A DNA stretch of 36,507 nucleotides. Origin: Parcubacteria group bacterium GW2011_GWE2_39_37 (GTDB lineage Bacteria; Patescibacteriota; Patescibacteriia; Patescibacteriales; GWE2-39-37). A program made the position numbers and the translations under genes. The notes under the pieces are model-generated. The model saw only the letters and a list, made by a program, of their open reading frames with translations. It ran no database searches and was not told where the DNA came from. The DNA lies in the NCBI GenBank assembly GCA_000995135.1, contig LBWY01000017.1, forward strand, positions 1 through 36,507, written 5' to 3'. The number at the start of each line of letters is the position of its first letter. Within the stretch, counting starts at the first letter, position 1. Positions 650-20,721 of this stretch are shown piece after piece.

Positions 650-1485
650 ATGGATTTAAAAACAATAGCTGATTATTACGATTATACATTACCTTTTTAT
701 AATTTTTTTATCATGGAGAAACTAATGGGATACATTATGGTTATTGGGACAAAGAAACAAAAGATCATGATGAAGCGCTGATAAACACAAATAAATTTTT
801 AGCTGAAAAAGTCAACTTAAAAGCAAATGACTATGTATTAGATGCAGGTTGTGGAATCGGAGGTAGTTCAGTTTGGATTGCAAAGAATTACAAGGCTCAT
901 ATTGCTGGAATTACATTAAGTGAAAAACAGGTAGTTGAAGCAGAAAGAATTGCCAAGGTAAACCGCCTGGATCACTTATTAAAGTTTTATAAGAGAAATT
1001 ATTTAGATACGAAATTTAATGAAAATTCATTTTCAGTTGTCTGGGCAGTTGAGAGTGTGTGTTATGCCGAAGATAAAGAAGAATTTATTAAAGAAGCTTA
1101 CCGTGTGTTAAAAAAGGGAGGAAGGCTGATAATTTGGGATGGCTTTTTGGCAAGAAAGCCCATTAATAAAAAAGAAAAAGAAGAATTGGATATTTTTCTT
1201 GAAGGCTGGGCACTTCCGAATTTAGACGGAGTTTCTGAATTTAAAAACTCTCTTGTGTCAGTTGGATTTAAAAATATAAAAGAATACGATGTCAGTAAAG
1301 AATCTTTACCGTCAGCTGATAAAATCTATAAAATGAGTAGGTGGAGTTATCCTTTTTCAATTTTGCTAAATAAATTTAAATTAATTCCCTTGTTGTTGGT
1401 AAAAAATAATCGTTCAGGAATTATGCAGCATCGAATTATAACGAACGGCATTATGGAGTTTAGAGTTTATTACGCTGAAAAATAA
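650..1485 (+). pseudogene. SAM-dependent methyltransferase, frameshifted near the N-terminus
   Basis: The ORF track shows only the C-terminal 142 residues from a GTG at 1057, but the reading frame is open from 703. It contains the class I SAM-binding motif LDAGCGIGG and an upstream HGETNGIHYGYWDKE segment. The true N-terminus (MDLKTIADYYDYTLPFYNFF) is encoded from ATG 650 in another frame. The two frames meet at a run of seven T (703-709), and one extra T would restore a gene of about 278 residues. The layout matches the UbiE/sterol and tocopherol methyltransferase superfamily, which methylates small lipophilic substrates; the substrate here is unknown. The break may be a real mutation, a sequencing error in a homopolymer, or a slippage site. 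No terminator is evident downstream. Confidence 0.75.
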
Positions 1486-1527
1486 CAACAGCTATCACTG
1501 AAAAAATTGATAAAATTGAGTAATTGC

Positions 1528-1556
1528 TTGACAACAATCCAGATTCCTGCTATTAT
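1528..1556 (+). promoter_or_regulatory. Sigma70-type promoter of the DEAD-box gene
   Basis: TTGACA (1528-1533), 17-base spacer, TATTAT (1551-1556), with an extended -10 TGC in front. Predicted transcript start is near 1563, leaving a leader of about 128 nt before ATG 1691. Confidence 0.8.
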
Positions 1557-1600
1557 AAGTTATTAGCTATTAATTTAAATAGATTCGAGTCTCCTGTCAT

Positions 1601-1635
1601 TAAGTGGCCTGTAGAAATCGGGTCACTTATTTTTT
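1601..1635 (+). promoter_or_regulatory. Terminator-like hairpin in the DEAD-box leader (putative attenuator)
   Basis: TAAGTGGCC (1601-1609) pairs with GGTCACTTA (1621-1629), nine pairs with one G-U, followed directly by a T run. It looks like an intrinsic terminator yet lies between the promoter and the helicase start codon, so it may act as an attenuator or as a 5' mRNA stabiliser. Confidence 0.55.
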
Positions 1636-1690
1636 ATTCGCTTTATTCGAATGCACCTCATAATTGGGGTAGCCGAAGGCGAAAAACATT

Positions 1691-3058
1691 ATGACAGAAC
1701 AAAAAAACATTGCCAATCCAGGGTTTGAAGGATTGGGTATCAGCGCTTCGATACTTGAAGTGCTGAAAAAAATGGAATTGGCTACACCAACGCCAATTCA
1801 AAAAAAGGCCATTCCAGTTGCTATTGATGGCAAGGACTTAATCGGAGTCGCACAAACCGGCACCGGCAAAACTTTTGCCTTCGGCATTCCGATGTTGCAG
1901 CGTCTAGCCTTGTACAAGGGCAGAGGCTTGGTTTTATTACCTACTCGAGAACTTGCATTGCAGGTTGAGGAAAGTTTGCAAAAACTGGGTTTAACTCTTG
2001 GCTTGCGTACCGCGGCCTTAATCGGCGGCGAGCCGATCGGCAAACAGATGCAGGTTTTGCGAAGGAATCCACACATCATTGTTGCTACTCCTGGCCGATT
2101 GAATGACCATCTCAAAAGAAAATCAATCAGTTTGAAAGAAGTTAAAGTGTTGGTTTTGGACGAGGCGGACATGATGCTTGATATGGGCTTTTTGCCACAG
2201 GTAAAAGAGATTCTATCTCATGTGACTCATACTCATCAAACCATGTTGTTTTCAGCAACCATGCCGGTAGCGATTGTAAGACTCGCTTCAGATCATATGG
2301 CTTTGCCAGTAAGTATCGAGGTTGCGCCAGCCGGTACTACTGCTGAACATATCAGGCAAGAAATGTTCATCATGAAAAAAGAGGACAAGCTGACCCATCT
2401 GGAAAAATTGCTGAAGCAATATACAGGTTCGGTCTTAGTCTTTGCTCGCACTCGACATAGCGCCAAGTCTTTGACCAGAAGCATTCATTTGATGGCCCAT
2501 ACGGTGGCAGAAATACATTCCGATCGCTCCCTTGACCAACGCAAGAAGGCTTTGGCCGGATTCAAGGCAGGTAAATTTCGTGTCCTTGTAGCTACTGATA
2601 TTGCTGCCCGTGGAATCGATGTTAAAGACATTGAGTTGGTATTGAACTATGACTTGCCGGATAATTCAGAAGATTATGTTCATCGTATCGGGCGTACAGC
2701 CAGAGCCGGCAAAAAGGGAATTGCCATTTCATTTGCGATGCCAAGCCAATCGAAAGAAATCCGCAGCATCGAAAGGTTGATTAATAAAAATCTGCCTTTA
2801 ACCAAGTTCGCTGAATTAGATAAGGCGCCTGCTTTTACTTCTGGCCGTCGTAAAAAAGGCGGTTTTAGCAGGCCGAAATCAGCCGCTTTTGCCGGCAGTA
2901 AATTTTCCAGCAGCAGCCAGCAACGTCCAGGCGGGCAAAATCGATCTCCTTGGCAAAGAACGGAAGCGTCAGCAAGAAGCGGATATAAGCCAGGCGGCGA
3001 GCGACCTGTTGCCCGTGCAAAACAAGATTTTGGTTCACGAACAAATAGATCGAGATAA
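1691..3058 (+). CDS. DEAD-box ATP-dependent RNA helicase
   Basis: Unwinds RNA duplexes using ATP, in ribosome assembly or mRNA turnover (RhlE/CsdA-type family). Motifs in order: Q motif region with TPTPIQ near residue 35, Walker A AQTGTGKT, Ia PTRELA, Ib TPGR, II DEAD, III SAT, V ATDIAARGID, VI HRIGRTARAG. After the two RecA folds (to about residue 380) comes a basic, Gly/Ser/Arg-rich tail (GRRKKGGFSRPK and on) that probably binds RNA. The 455-residue length suits an RhlE-like enzyme. It is a single-gene unit with its own promoter, terminator-like leader and 3' terminator. Known relatives are often cold-induced, which would fit leader control, but that is inference. Confidence 0.95.
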   Translation: MTEQKNIANPGFEGLGISASILEVLKKMELATPTPIQKKAIPVAIDGKDLIGVAQTGTGKTFAFGIPMLQRLALYKGRGLVLLPTRELALQVEESLQKLGLTLGLRTAALIGGEPIGKQMQVLRRNPHIIVATPGRLNDHLKRKSISLKEVKVLVLDEADMMLDMGFLPQVKEILSHVTHTHQTMLFSATMPVAIVRLASDHMALPVSIEVAPAGTTAEHIRQEMFIMKKEDKLTHLEKLLKQYTGSVLVFARTRHSAKSLTRSIHLMAHTVAEIHSDRSLDQRKKALAGFKAGKFRVLVATDIAARGIDVKDIELVLNYDLPDNSEDYVHRIGRTARAGKKGIAISFAMPSQSKEIRSIERLINKNLPLTKFAELDKAPAFTSGRRKKGGFSRPKSAAFAGSKFSSSSQQRPGGQNRSPWQRTEASARSGYKPGGERPVARAKQDFGSRTNRSR

Positions 3059-17965: not shown

Positions 17966-18781
17966 ATGAAAAATCCAAAAATCGGATTAGCCTTGGGTGG
18001 TGGTGGAGCAAGAGGCTTGGCGCACATCGGTGTATTGAAGGTGCTACATGAGGCCGGTATAAAAATTGATTATATTTGCGGTGTCAGTATGGGAGCCTTG
18101 ATCGGCGCCGGTTATAGTTTGGGTATGGATATCCTGGAAATGGAAAAAGAGGCTAACAGCTTTACAAAGACCAAGGCGATGAGGGAATTGGTTGATCTTT
18201 CAACTTTTAGGCGATCTATAATCAAAGGCAAAAAAATCTTTAAGTATATAGATAATTTTTTGGGAGAAAAAGATTTTAATGACACCAAGTTTCCTTTCAA
18301 GATTATCGCCACCAATCTTTCAGACGGTAGTGTGGTAGCTTTGACTAAAGGCAATTTAGCAAGAGCGGTTGAAGCTAGTATCTGTGTGCCTGGCATTTTG
18401 CCACCGGTTAAAATCGGTAATGATTATTTAGTAGATGGTGGCGTAGCAAATCCGACTCCGATTGATGAGACGATAAAAATGGGTGCCGATTTAGTGATAG
18501 GCGTAGATTTGATTATAAAGAAGCCGGTAAAAATAATTGACAACCCCAATATGATATTCACCCTGATGCAGTCTTATGAAATAATCAGAAACAAAGTTTT
18601 TGATTCCTGCATTAATAGTGGATATGACGGCAAGGTAGTCTTGATCAAGCCGGATTTGAACGGATATGGCGTGGTAAATAGTTTTAAGTTTTATAATATT
18701 AAAGAATTTATTGAAGCAGGCGAAGCAGCGGCAAGAAAGATGATGCCAGAGATCAGGAAGAAGATGGAAGGTTTGAAATAA
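17966..18781 (+). CDS. Patatin-like phospholipase (RssA/YchK type)
   Basis: 271 residues with the full patatin set: oxyanion GGGGARG near residue 12, nucleophile elbow GVSMGAL (GxSxG, Ser about 41), and catalytic Asp in DGGVANP (about 158-164). These serine-aspartate lipid acyl hydrolases cleave membrane lipids or lysolipids. No signal peptide, so it acts in the cytoplasm or at the inner membrane face. In CPR bacteria with little lipid synthesis, such an enzyme could process scavenged lipid; that is inference. Ends just before the tRNA-Gln island. Confidence 0.9.
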   Translation: MKNPKIGLALGGGGARGLAHIGVLKVLHEAGIKIDYICGVSMGALIGAGYSLGMDILEMEKEANSFTKTKAMRELVDLSTFRRSIIKGKKIFKYIDNFLGEKDFNDTKFPFKIIATNLSDGSVVALTKGNLARAVEASICVPGILPPVKIGNDYLVDGGVANPTPIDETIKMGADLVIGVDLIIKKPVKIIDNPNMIFTLMQSYEIIRNKVFDSCINSGYDGKVVLIKPDLNGYGVVNSFKFYNIKEFIEAGEAAARKMMPEIRKKMEGLK

Positions 18782-18786
18782 AATAA

Positions 18787-18812
18787 ATTATTCGGGGATC
18801 GTCTAATGGTAG
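18787..18812 (+). repeat. 26-bp direct repeat of the tRNA-Gln 5' end (left copy)
   Basis: These 26 bases, starting ATTATTCGGGGATCG and ending CTAATGGTAG, are identical to 19121-19146, which is the first 21 bases of tRNA-Gln plus five upstream bases. The left copy lacks the anticodon and T arms. Instead it continues into a GC-rich hairpin (GTCGCC/GGCGAC) and a second TCGGGGA word at 18840. It looks like an attachment or duplication scar. Confidence 0.85.
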
Positions 18813-18860
18813 TCGCCTCATCGGCGACCCGCCGGAGAGTCGGGGACAATAAATTTGTTT

Positions 18861-19117
18861 ATGTGGTATGTATACATATTACAGAGCATAAAAAATAAAA
18901 GGCTATATTGTGGTTATACTGATAATTTAAAAAGGAGATTTGAAGAGCATAATAATGGTGAGGGCGGAAAATTTACCCACGACAACAGACCCTTTAGCTG
19001 ATTTTTTATGAAGCATTCATAGAGAAGAAAGATGCTACTGTACAAGAGCTTTTTTATAAAACCGGGTATGGTCGGGAAGTACTTAAAGGTAAATTAAAAA
19101 ATTTTTTATCAAAATAA
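18861..19117 (+). pseudogene. Small GIY-YIG endonuclease, frameshifted
   Basis: Too broken for the ORF track. From ATG 18861: MWYVYILQSIKNKRLYCGYTDNLKRRFEEHNN..., a classic small GIY-YIG (UPF0213-like) start with YVY, YCG-YTDNLKRR and E-H. It hits a TGA at 18999 after ...THDNRPFS. In the next frame the family sequence resumes at 18998 (LIFYEAFIEKKDA...) and runs to TAA 19115-19117, about 85 residues in total. One extra base near 18997 would repair it. It lies exactly between the two tRNA-Gln direct repeats, so it is the likely cargo or agent of the insertion. It may be dead, or a sequencing error. Confidence 0.8.
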
Positions 19118-19125
19118 AATATTAT

Positions 19126-19196
19126 TCGGGGATCGTCTAATGGTAGGACAGCTGGTTCTGGTCCAGTCAATCGGGGTTCGAATCCCTGTCCCCGAG
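19126..19196 (+). tRNA. tRNA-Gln (anticodon CTG)
   Basis: Acceptor TCGGGGA/TCCCCGA, D arm GTCT-AATGGTA-GGAC, anticodon stem GCTGG/CCAGT with loop TTCTGGT giving CTG (reads CAG), T arm CGGGG-TTCGAAT-CCCTG. Discriminator G; CCA is not encoded. T38 suits glutamine tRNAs. Its 5' part is duplicated upstream and its 3' part is mimicked downstream. Confidence 0.92.
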
Positions 19197-19233
19197 CATA
19201 AAAATAAAATACACCTGAGCGAAGCGATAGCGT

Positions 19234-19260
19234 AGGGGTAAATCCCTGTCCCTGATCATA
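19234..19260 (+). repeat. Degenerate 3' part of tRNA-Gln
   Basis: AGGGGTAAATCCCTGTCCCTGATCATA follows the tRNA 3' end CGGGGTTCGAATCCCTGTCCCCGAGCATA with a few changes and a shortened T loop, 39 bp after the intact gene. A scrap, not a working tRNA. Confidence 0.6.
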
Positions 19261-19261
19261 C

Positions 19262-19306
19262 AAATAAAGAAGTACTAAGCGAAAGCGTAATACTCCTTTA
19301 TTTTAT
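19262..19306 (+). terminator. Likely terminator of tRNA-Gln
   Basis: AAATAAAG...AGTACTAAGCG pairs with GCGTAATACT...CTTTATTT in a long, slightly interrupted hairpin that ends in TTTTATTG. A related but weaker GCG hairpin precedes it at about 19211-19238. Confidence 0.6.
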
Positions 19307-19405
19307 TGTTTCAGAAAAGAATGAGACCTGCCCGACTGCCGAGACGAAAGTTTACTTTAGTATAAAGTAATTCAAAATTAAATAGTCTCATAAATAGCTA
19401 GGTAT

Positions 19406-19434
19406 TTGATGTTAAGGCTAAAATAAGATATAAT
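19406..19434 (+). promoter_or_regulatory. Promoter of the GIY-YIG gene
   Basis: TTGATG, 17 bases, TATAAT (19429-19434). Confidence 0.6.
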
Positions 19435-19472
19435 TTAAGCATTGGTAACAGTTGCTGAATAGGGAGAATTAT

Positions 19473-20210
19473 ATGCAAAAAATAATTCAAACAGAATCTA
19501 AAAAACTTAACCAGTCTTTAACAGAAAGATTGGGGTATTATGTATATTTATTGAAGGACCCAAGTACTGAGACTATTTTTTATGTTGGGAAGGGATGTGG
19601 AAAAAGAATTTTAGCTCATGAAAAAGATGCGCTATGTAAAATTATTAAAGATAACGAAAAGAGTAGGATAATAAGAAAAATTAAAAAGACTGGTAAAAAA
19701 GTAGAGGAAATAATTCTAAGACATGGAATGAGCTCAAGAGAAGCATTTGAAGTTGAAAGTGCAATGATCGATTATTTGGGTAAAAATAATTTGGTAAATA
19801 TTGTTAGCGGACATCATTCTCAAGGCAGAGGTATTATGACACTGCAGGAACTAAATGCAAAATATAAAGCAGTTGCGGCAGAATTTCAAGAAGAGGTATT
19901 ATTAATAAATATTAACAATTCCTTTAAGAGAGGGATGAGTAATGATGATTTATACGAAGTAACTAGAAAGCATTGGAGAGTAAGTAAAAAAAATGTTGAT
20001 AAAATAAAAATAGTTTGTGCTGTTTATCGTGGTTTAATAAGAGAGGTATTTAATGTTGAAAAATGGTGCGTTTCACCTGCAAGTAGAAAGGGGAGATGCT
20101 ATTTTATTGGAAAGCCGGCAGGTAAAAAAATTAGACAAAAATATTTAAACAAATCAGTAATAAAATATTGGCCAAAAGGAGTTGCGACTCCAGTAAGATA
20201 TGCCAGCTGA
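19473..20210 (+). CDS. GIY-YIG nuclease-family protein with C-terminal domain
   Basis: I start at ATG 19473 (AGGGAG 6-8 bases upstream) rather than the track's TTG, giving 245 residues. The N-terminal GIY-YIG fold has YVYLL (23-27), YVGKGCGKR (37-45) with the catalytic-type Arg, and a Glu in EVESAMIDYLG near residue 95; LVNIVSGH follows. The second half (WRVSKKNVDKIKIVCAVYRGLIREVF, KYLNKSVIKYW) is a separate domain I have seen only attached to this type of GIY-YIG protein; its role is unknown. With the broken GIY-YIG gene 350 bp upstream and tRNA-Gln between, this is part of an accessory island. It may be a homing-like or defence nuclease; not proven. Confidence 0.8.
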   Translation: MQKIIQTESKKLNQSLTERLGYYVYLLKDPSTETIFYVGKGCGKRILAHEKDALCKIIKDNEKSRIIRKIKKTGKKVEEIILRHGMSSREAFEVESAMIDYLGKNNLVNIVSGHHSQGRGIMTLQELNAKYKAVAAEFQEEVLLININNSFKRGMSNDDLYEVTRKHWRVSKKNVDKIKIVCAVYRGLIREVFNVEKWCVSPASRKGRCYFIGKPAGKKIRQKYLNKSVIKYWPKGVATPVRYAS

Positions 20211-20238
20211 ATTGGACTAATTATCTTAATAGATAAAA

Positions 20239-20721
20239 ATGAAAAATAAATTAACAGAAAAATTTTTTATCAAGATTAATCCTGCTTTTTTTTGGACTTC
20301 CATGGCTATTGTTATCATGTTGTCATTGTATGTTATTTTTGAAAATTATAAAATATCGGCCAGTAATTATGCTTTGGCTGCTGACTTAAATTATGTGATT
20401 GACAAAAATGTTGTAAAACATAAAAAAAATGAATTTATAGAATGCGATTGTGAGAAAAGATTCAAGAGAGACTACCCGATAATGTGGAGTGGAAGAGTAA
20501 TAGCATCTTTTGTTAGTGGTGAAGATGTTGGAGTGGAACGGTATGATAAAAAAACAAGATATAATCAGTTTTATTTAAGCACTCAAGGAAAATACGATGA
20601 AAAGTTAGGATCTGACATTAGGGTGAATGGTCGAATGGTGGGCATTACTTGTGCTTACGCTAATTCAATTTTTGGTGCTTGTGTTGCCGATGTTATAGCG
20701 GATAAAATAACATATTTATAA
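20239..20721 (+). CDS. Membrane-anchored hypothetical protein
   Basis: 160 residues, no family recognised. One N-terminal membrane helix (FFWTSMAIVIMLSLYVIF, about 18-35) with a basic cytoplasmic tip, then an extracytoplasmic domain. That domain carries four cysteines in two groups (CDC and CAYANSIFGAC), which could form disulfides, and beta-strand-like segments (VIASFVSGEDVGVERYDKKTRYNQFYL) that recall small OB folds. It begins 28 bp after the GIY-YIG nuclease in the same direction, so it may be its co-transferred partner. Confidence 0.6.
   Translation: MKNKLTEKFFIKINPAFFWTSMAIVIMLSLYVIFENYKISASNYALAADLNYVIDKNVVKHKKNEFIECDCEKRFKRDYPIMWSGRVIASFVSGEDVGVERYDKKTRYNQFYLSTQGKYDEKLGSDIRVNGRMVGITCAYANSIFGACVADVIADKITYL

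Follow-up and report, generated by a model that had tools for sequence, protein, structure and literature searches.

The stretch of DNA analysed here (the window) comprises 36,507 nucleotides of contig LBWY01000017.1 from Parcubacteria group bacterium GW2011_GWE2_39_37. The locus under study contains a sole tRNA, an intact tRNA-Gln(CTG) gene at positions 19126 to 19197; this gene and all features of the locus described in this paragraph lie on the plus strand. The left neighbour is a gene for a patatin-like protein (17966 to 18781), which serves as the synteny anchor to the empty sites in two relatives, G002 and G003. It is followed by a tRNA fragment (18787 to 18812) consisting of five flanking bases (attat) and nucleotides 1 to 21 of tRNA-Gln. 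An identical copy of these 26 bp forms the start of the intact tRNA 334 bp further on (19121 to 19146). The arrangement is above chance: the identity is 100% across the 21 tRNA bases (E value of 4e-8 within its own locus), and dozens of loci share this layout (see below). The left fragment is interrupted in the D-loop, after GGTAG, by a 32-bp double hairpin (TCGCC-TCATC-GGCGA and CCCGCC-GGAGA-GTCGGG; 18813 to 18844). Behind the hairpin, tRNA sequence resumes with GACA (nucleotides 22 to 25; 18845 to 18848), and the upstream copy is therefore nucleotides 1 to 25 of the tRNA carrying a D-loop insert; the corresponding fragment in a relative, G007, has the same end point. Then follows a small GIY-YIG nuclease gene (18861 to 19117), which encodes about 85 amino acids in relatives with a whole gene and has an intact equivalent in G007. 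The GIY-YIG domain was detected from position 18861 (Pfam PF01541, E value of 2e-13), and its second half (18983 to 19111, E value of 7.6e-8) is in a different frame; thus, the window gene carries one frameshift. Downstream of the intact tRNA, an imperfect hairpin and a degenerate copy of the tRNA-Gln 3' end (nucleotides 56 to 72) occupy positions 19212 to 19257, the copy itself lying at 19241 to 19257. A hairpin and a degenerate 3' copy are also found behind tRNA-Gln(TTG) elsewhere in the same genome.

Most structural claims of the initial annotation, which was made from the sequence alone, held: the exact repeat of the tRNA-Gln 5' end with five flanking bases 334 bp upstream, the small GIY-YIG gene with one frameshift (PF01541 matches in two frames) and the GC hairpin in the interval, and the absence of an integrase, which was found neither in the interval of about 0.3 kb here nor in its intact version. 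The degenerate 3' copy was confirmed as well, but lies 43 bp past the tRNA instead of 39 bp. The annotation had further listed a second, intact GIY-YIG gene and a membrane protein downstream. The former is real (19473 to 20210) but is LEM-3-like (PF22945) and of a different type from the small GIY-YIG gene; behind it, a gene for a 160-amino-acid protein without any match is present (20239 to 20721). Neither was found beside tRNA-Gln in G002 and G003. Both are unnecessary for the pattern described here, and their membership in the element is not demonstrated.

In several genomes of the order, tRNA-Gln(CTG) is preceded by dnaX or by dnaX and the patatin gene. Empty sites at the syntenic locus, which had been proposed as a check, were indeed found: neither the 5' copy nor the nuclease gene is present at tRNA-Gln in G002 and G003 (same family, after the patatin gene) or in G063 (after dnaX). 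The site is occupied in G007, with dnaX, nucleotides 1 to 25 of the tRNA with a palindrome of 33 to 34 bp, an intact 84-amino-acid GIY-YIG gene (locus L092, 2599 to 2853, minus strand) and tRNA-Gln. G044 has a remnant: the hairpin region of its 5' copy is 94% identical to that of the window, the nuclease gene is absent, and the 5' copy has the same G044-specific base as its own intact tRNA. A different double hairpin is inserted at the same D-loop point in G033, and G075 has two full tRNA-Gln genes, one bearing a palindrome. With G002, G003 and G063 empty, G007 intact and G044 retaining only the hairpin, occupied, remnant and empty states thus coexist at the tRNA-Gln locus. The element would have been refuted if all relatives had the same layout with no empty site; this is not the case.

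The layout recurs at other tRNAs. In the genome of the window, a tRNA-Ser(GGA) copy split by palindromes in the D- and T-loops is followed by an 83-amino-acid GIY-YIG gene and the intact tRNA. We then searched 111 genomes of the order with the G007 protein, itself encoded by a tRNA-linked gene, and obtained matches in 75. Together with the own-genome genes, 119 loci were drawn down the ranked list; three were chosen because they sit by tRNA-Gln, a bias that is small compared with the effect. A tRNA on the same strand was found within 300 bp in 79 of the 119 loci (98 such tRNAs in total), and not a single tRNA on the opposite strand was found within 300 bp in any of the 119. Fifteen tRNA isotypes are represented. 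A GTDB-wide scan, for which the tRNA-Glu nuclease clade was used as the query because the mixed alignment was too diverse, yielded 44 loci, of which 40 have a tRNA on the same strand no more than 300 bp away, mostly tRNA-Glu. The tRNA-Glu loci came from metagenome-assembled genomes (MAGs) of Patescibacteria and Bacteroidota, and many are split at GTTTT^CATC with a double hairpin. Most genomes were MAGs, in which contamination could inflate the phylum range, but Bacteroidota isolates, which are immune to that, also have the layout at Asp, Arg or Thr (e.g., Pedobacter sp. BS3, Daejeonella oryzae DSM 19973, with the tRNA-Arg type at locus L246, and Echinicola arenosa). Among the best PF01541 matches examined phylum-wide (78 genomes), only 5 of 29 lay within 300 bp of a tRNA, as did 2 of the 10 GIY-YIG genes of the genome of the window; therefore, tRNA linkage belongs to certain clades and not to all small GIY-YIG genes.

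The order search and the GTDB-wide scan together gave 159 distinct GIY-YIG loci, most of them adjoining a tRNA gene. Where the gene lies just upstream of the tRNA (U-type), a fragment of the cognate tRNA was found beyond the gene in 67 of 84 loci (80%), compared with 5 of 672 (0.7%) for non-cognate tRNAs, and 61 of the 67 fragments start at nucleotide 1 of the tRNA. In the mirror form (D-type), the gene lies downstream of the tRNA and is followed by a 3' fragment, which was found in 13 of 25 loci for the cognate tRNA and in 0 of 200 for non-cognate tRNAs. The order of 5' fragment, GIY-YIG gene and intact tRNA, which the initial annotation had suggested looking for at other tRNAs, is therefore present both at tRNA-Ser of the same genome and in the 67 U-type loci, and its claim that the 5' half is duplicated has to be widened, since the 3' half may be the duplicated part instead. 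The gene commonly starts 10 to 30 bp past the end of the fragment (median gap to the match of about 20 bp), and the tRNA begins 0 to 50 bp past the end of the gene. With the gene so tight against both, there is no room for a missing half in most loci, which counts against decayed tandem copies. At one tRNA-Glu locus (L149), three successive 5' fragments, two with an identical palindrome, precede the nuclease gene, which resembles stacked invasions or duplications.

The GC hairpin is not peculiar to the window but a recurrent component of the element. We identified 68 inserts in tRNA fragments, and in all 68 no tRNA base was lost; their GC content was 71% and their fold z score was -3.8. The anticodon loop and the D-loop received 27 inserts each. 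Members of one nuclease clade share a hairpin type and site, even across tRNAs and host families: a 40-bp palindrome at CAGTT^GG or CAGAT^GG in the Ala/Asp/Met clade, a double hairpin at TTTT^CATC in the Glu clade, and an insert in the anticodon loop in the Tyr and Ser(GGA) clade. Insert lengths favoured 20, 30 and 40 (multiples of 10 in 23 of 53 unique inserts); inserts of the same clade are not independent.

Pieces of tRNA also occur without a nuclease. When tRNA flanks of the genome of the window were checked for partial repeats, 14 of 54 carried a cognate piece, 12 of these without a nuclease gene, and no nuclease remnants besides the known genes were detected in these flanks at an E value of 0.001. 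At 11 tRNAs lacking a nuclease gene (L013, L016, L017, L021, L023, L026, L028, L029, L031, L032 and L035), the 3' end is repeated downstream, mostly from the T-loop and mostly behind GC palindromes, and three times after tRNA-Lys. The intervening terminator arm seems to contain the 3' half of the tRNA in degraded, inverted copies.

The nuclease is a small (75 to 85 amino acids) GIY-YIG protein of the Slx1/UPF0213 type that consists of the catalytic domain only; PF01541 was matched in all 14 nucleases checked. In the aligned set, Y3, Y14, G16, R24, H28 and E60 are invariant, including the catalytic Tyr, Arg, His and Glu; the window copy itself is frameshifted. A DNA-binding module of the NUMOD type, as in I-TevI-like enzymes, was not recognisable in these proteins, and we therefore class the element as one that works like the Seg systems, not as a member of the Seg family. 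When the tRNA targets were mapped onto the tree of the 119 nucleases, 39 changes were needed, compared with 58.9 after shuffling, and none of 200 shuffles was as low. The tree rests on few columns, and its deep forks are unsure. Each nuclease clade is specific for the tRNA that it splits, and the clades extend over different host families and phyla. In unsaturated close pairs, dN/dS was 0.011/0.79, 0.022/0.38 and 0.042/0.94, well below 1, demonstrating purifying selection on the nuclease. Stop codons were found in the nuclease genes of several loci besides the frameshifted window copy. A search for a vector gave one partial relative in viral contigs and seven distant unannotated matches in phage records; no vector was found.

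At loci without a detected nearby tRNA, inverted repeats flanked the gene in 19 of 37 cases (control, 0.3%). Related GIY-YIG genes were seen within a 16S rRNA gene (L132; 16S match 1161 to 2852, minus strand), within a tmRNA gene (L183; tmRNA match 2266 to 2961, minus strand) and at the 5' end of an RNase P RNA (L151; 1928 to 2473, minus strand). In these three loci, inverted repeats of about 19 to 24 bp that would lengthen a stem flank the gene. In the genome of the window, five GIY-YIG genes (L043, L046, L047, L048 and L049) lie between repeats in inverted orientation (e.g., GTCATCCTGAACTCGTTTCAGGATCA), and these genes may be tied to the spread of such repeats. A match to a group I intron (RF00028) was seen at one further locus, L112; it lies beside a GIY-YIG gene in an apparent tRNA gene that ARAGORN misses. 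For the window, a group I intron in the tRNA was rejected: no Intron_gpI match was obtained at the gathering threshold, and a full tRNA copy is present instead of a second half.

The nearest known system is SegB of phages T4 and T6 (PMC13096335; review, PMC2988022). SegB cleaves within tRNA genes, and in phage T6 it causes tRNA-Tyr and segB to be amplified in tandem via microhomology between the tRNA 5' end and the segB 3' end (PMC13096335), and homing genes of T4 are under hairpin control (PMC2988022). Like segB, the genes described here are free-standing GIY-YIG genes beside tRNA genes of many isotypes. SegB cuts inside tRNA-containing DNA and duplicates tRNA segments, whereas cutting by the present nucleases is not shown. 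Unlike segB, the present genes are chromosomal, encode only a catalytic domain of 75 to 85 amino acids and are inserted within the tRNA, one half of which is left broken with hairpins; their clades are specific for one tRNA and split site. Homing genes of the LAGLIDADG and GIY-YIG types in rRNA insertions of the CPR (PMC11270868) resemble them in bacterial group, in the association with stem-loops of structural RNAs, and in horizontal spread with site-specific protein clades, but lie within rRNA genes and are partly in self-splicing introns. The survey of these insertions did not mention tRNA and placed GIY-YIG outside homing (PMC11270868). The closest solved relatives by sequence are the stand-alone Slx1 and UPF0213 proteins (1zg2 and 7cq2; E values of 1.5e-16 for UPF0213 and 3e-4 for SLX1), which are described as structure-specific nucleases or have no known role and are not described as tRNA-linked mobile genes. 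The double-hairpin elements of Allomyces mitochondria are paired short GC-rich hairpins at many sites. The inserts found here are likewise paired short GC-rich hairpins, but those of Allomyces are in organelle DNA and, to our knowledge, no nuclease gene is linked to them.

The anatomy is clear: a nuclease gene lies between a truncated tRNA half and an unbroken copy of that tRNA, all on one strand, and the truncated half, 5' upstream (U-type) or 3' downstream (D-type), has hairpins in its loops. The most probable explanation is that minimal, free-standing, homing-like GIY-YIG elements interrupt tRNA genes while one intact copy remains; cleavage and homing are inferred. Several criteria for such an element are fulfilled: the GIY-YIG domain has its catalytic residues, the gene sits in and disrupts the site presumed to be its target, empty as well as occupied alleles exist, and target-specific clades have spread horizontally. 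This supports the earlier proposal of a minimal homing-like element that preserves the tRNA by duplication, with homing activity remaining an inference, and the window locus is likely a decaying member of the family. We propose that the nuclease would cut an uninterrupted tRNA gene at a loop and that the break would be repaired from an element-bearing copy with tRNA sequence, presumably the most conserved DNA common to distant hosts, as homology on both sides. The element would thereby be copied in, a full tRNA would be rebuilt on one side, and the old half would remain on the other. The hairpin may inactivate the left-over half, as a nuclease target or a misfolding tRNA, or restrain translation of the nuclease. 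Fragments match the tRNA of their own genome best in 51 of 58 cases and the rebuilt half is not visibly foreign; the scheme therefore needs an additional step of local duplication or later conversion. Further points speak against it: the intact tRNA beside the gene would contain the presumed target, and how self-cleavage is avoided is unexplained; a recognisable DNA-binding domain like the NUMODs of classical GIY-YIG homing enzymes is missing; in the genome of the window, many hairpin-bearing 3' fragments of tRNAs lack a nuclease gene; just 5 of the 29 best phylum-wide GIY-YIG matches are near a tRNA; and the genomes are mostly MAGs.

Could the pattern have arisen otherwise? An ordinary tandem tRNA duplication with decay of one copy, between which and the other an unrelated GIY-YIG gene drifted, is in line with the frequent nuclease-free pieces in the genome of the window (12 of the 14 flanks with cognate pieces) and with the two full tRNA-Gln genes of G075. 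This is very unlikely, since the same order is found at most tRNA types with no opposite-strand case, nuclease clades track the tRNA target, and loci with few bases between gene and tRNA exclude a missing 3' half; the decayed tandem array named in the initial annotation as a refutation thus fails. Alternatively, the palindromes could be the mobile units, REP-like or double-hairpin elements with a preference for tRNA loops, and the GIY-YIG gene a helper or passenger. Indeed, palindromes are present in nuclease-free tRNA fragments (own tRNA-Leu and tRNA-Pro; G044, G033, G001 and G075), and inverted repeats often flank the non-tRNA GIY-YIG genes. However, palindrome sequence and site go with the nuclease clade and tRNA, as in the Glu, Tyr/Ser and Ala/Asp/Met clades, and the inserts are only 16 to 70 bp long without coding content. 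The genome does have Y1 transposase genes, but none was found at these loci, and we regard this alternative as unlikely. The interpretation of the GTAG hairpins as RAYT/REP elements was also dropped as the main reading; the two Y1 genes (PF01797; contigs C15 and C37) are unlinked, with no tRNA in the flanks examined.

A remnant of an integrase-type island with the tRNA as attachment site would account for direct tRNA repeats flanking an insert at the usual target of such islands. It is all but excluded, as neither a tyrosine nor a serine integrase is present in the interval of the window or of the intact version, the U-type repeats are 5' ends cut off at the D-loop or the anticodon loop, and the sole gene between them is that of the GIY-YIG nuclease. 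Finally, the locus could be a selected tRNA-amplification or regulatory cassette and not a selfish homing element, for which SegB of phage T6 (PMC13096335) is a precedent and to which the tandem fragments of L149 would fit. This is highly improbable: usually a single intact tRNA results and dosage therefore does not rise, the genes decay (in the window, and by stops in several loci), as expected of selfish genes, and the tRNA-Gln locus is often empty.

We thus favour the homing-like element. A bolder reading, which we would neither endorse nor dismiss, is that these loci belong to a hitherto undescribed but widespread class of chromosomal mobile elements of minimal size (about 0.3 kb, with one Slx1-like GIY-YIG nuclease). 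In Patescibacteria and Bacteroidota, these would home into loops of structural RNAs, namely most tRNAs as well as 16S rRNA, tmRNA and the 5' part of RNase P RNA. In this reading, tRNA sequence would serve as homology between distant hosts, rebuilding of the tRNA would keep the host alive, and hairpins would label the cut site or render it silent. The open-licence literature searched contained no description of GIY-YIG genes linked to tRNAs in either Patescibacteria or Bacteroidota. tRNA genes are classical landing sites of integrase-bearing islands; the elements described here would represent a second, integrase-free mode of using them, via a nuclease with a single catalytic domain, across much of the uncultured bacterial diversity as well as in cultivable Bacteroidota. 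They would account for many of the tRNA fragments and small GIY-YIG genes that these genomes contain and would give the phage SegB system a chromosomal counterpart. Moreover, with these elements it becomes testable how a nuclease of this small size selects one tRNA gene while sparing the adjoining intact copy.
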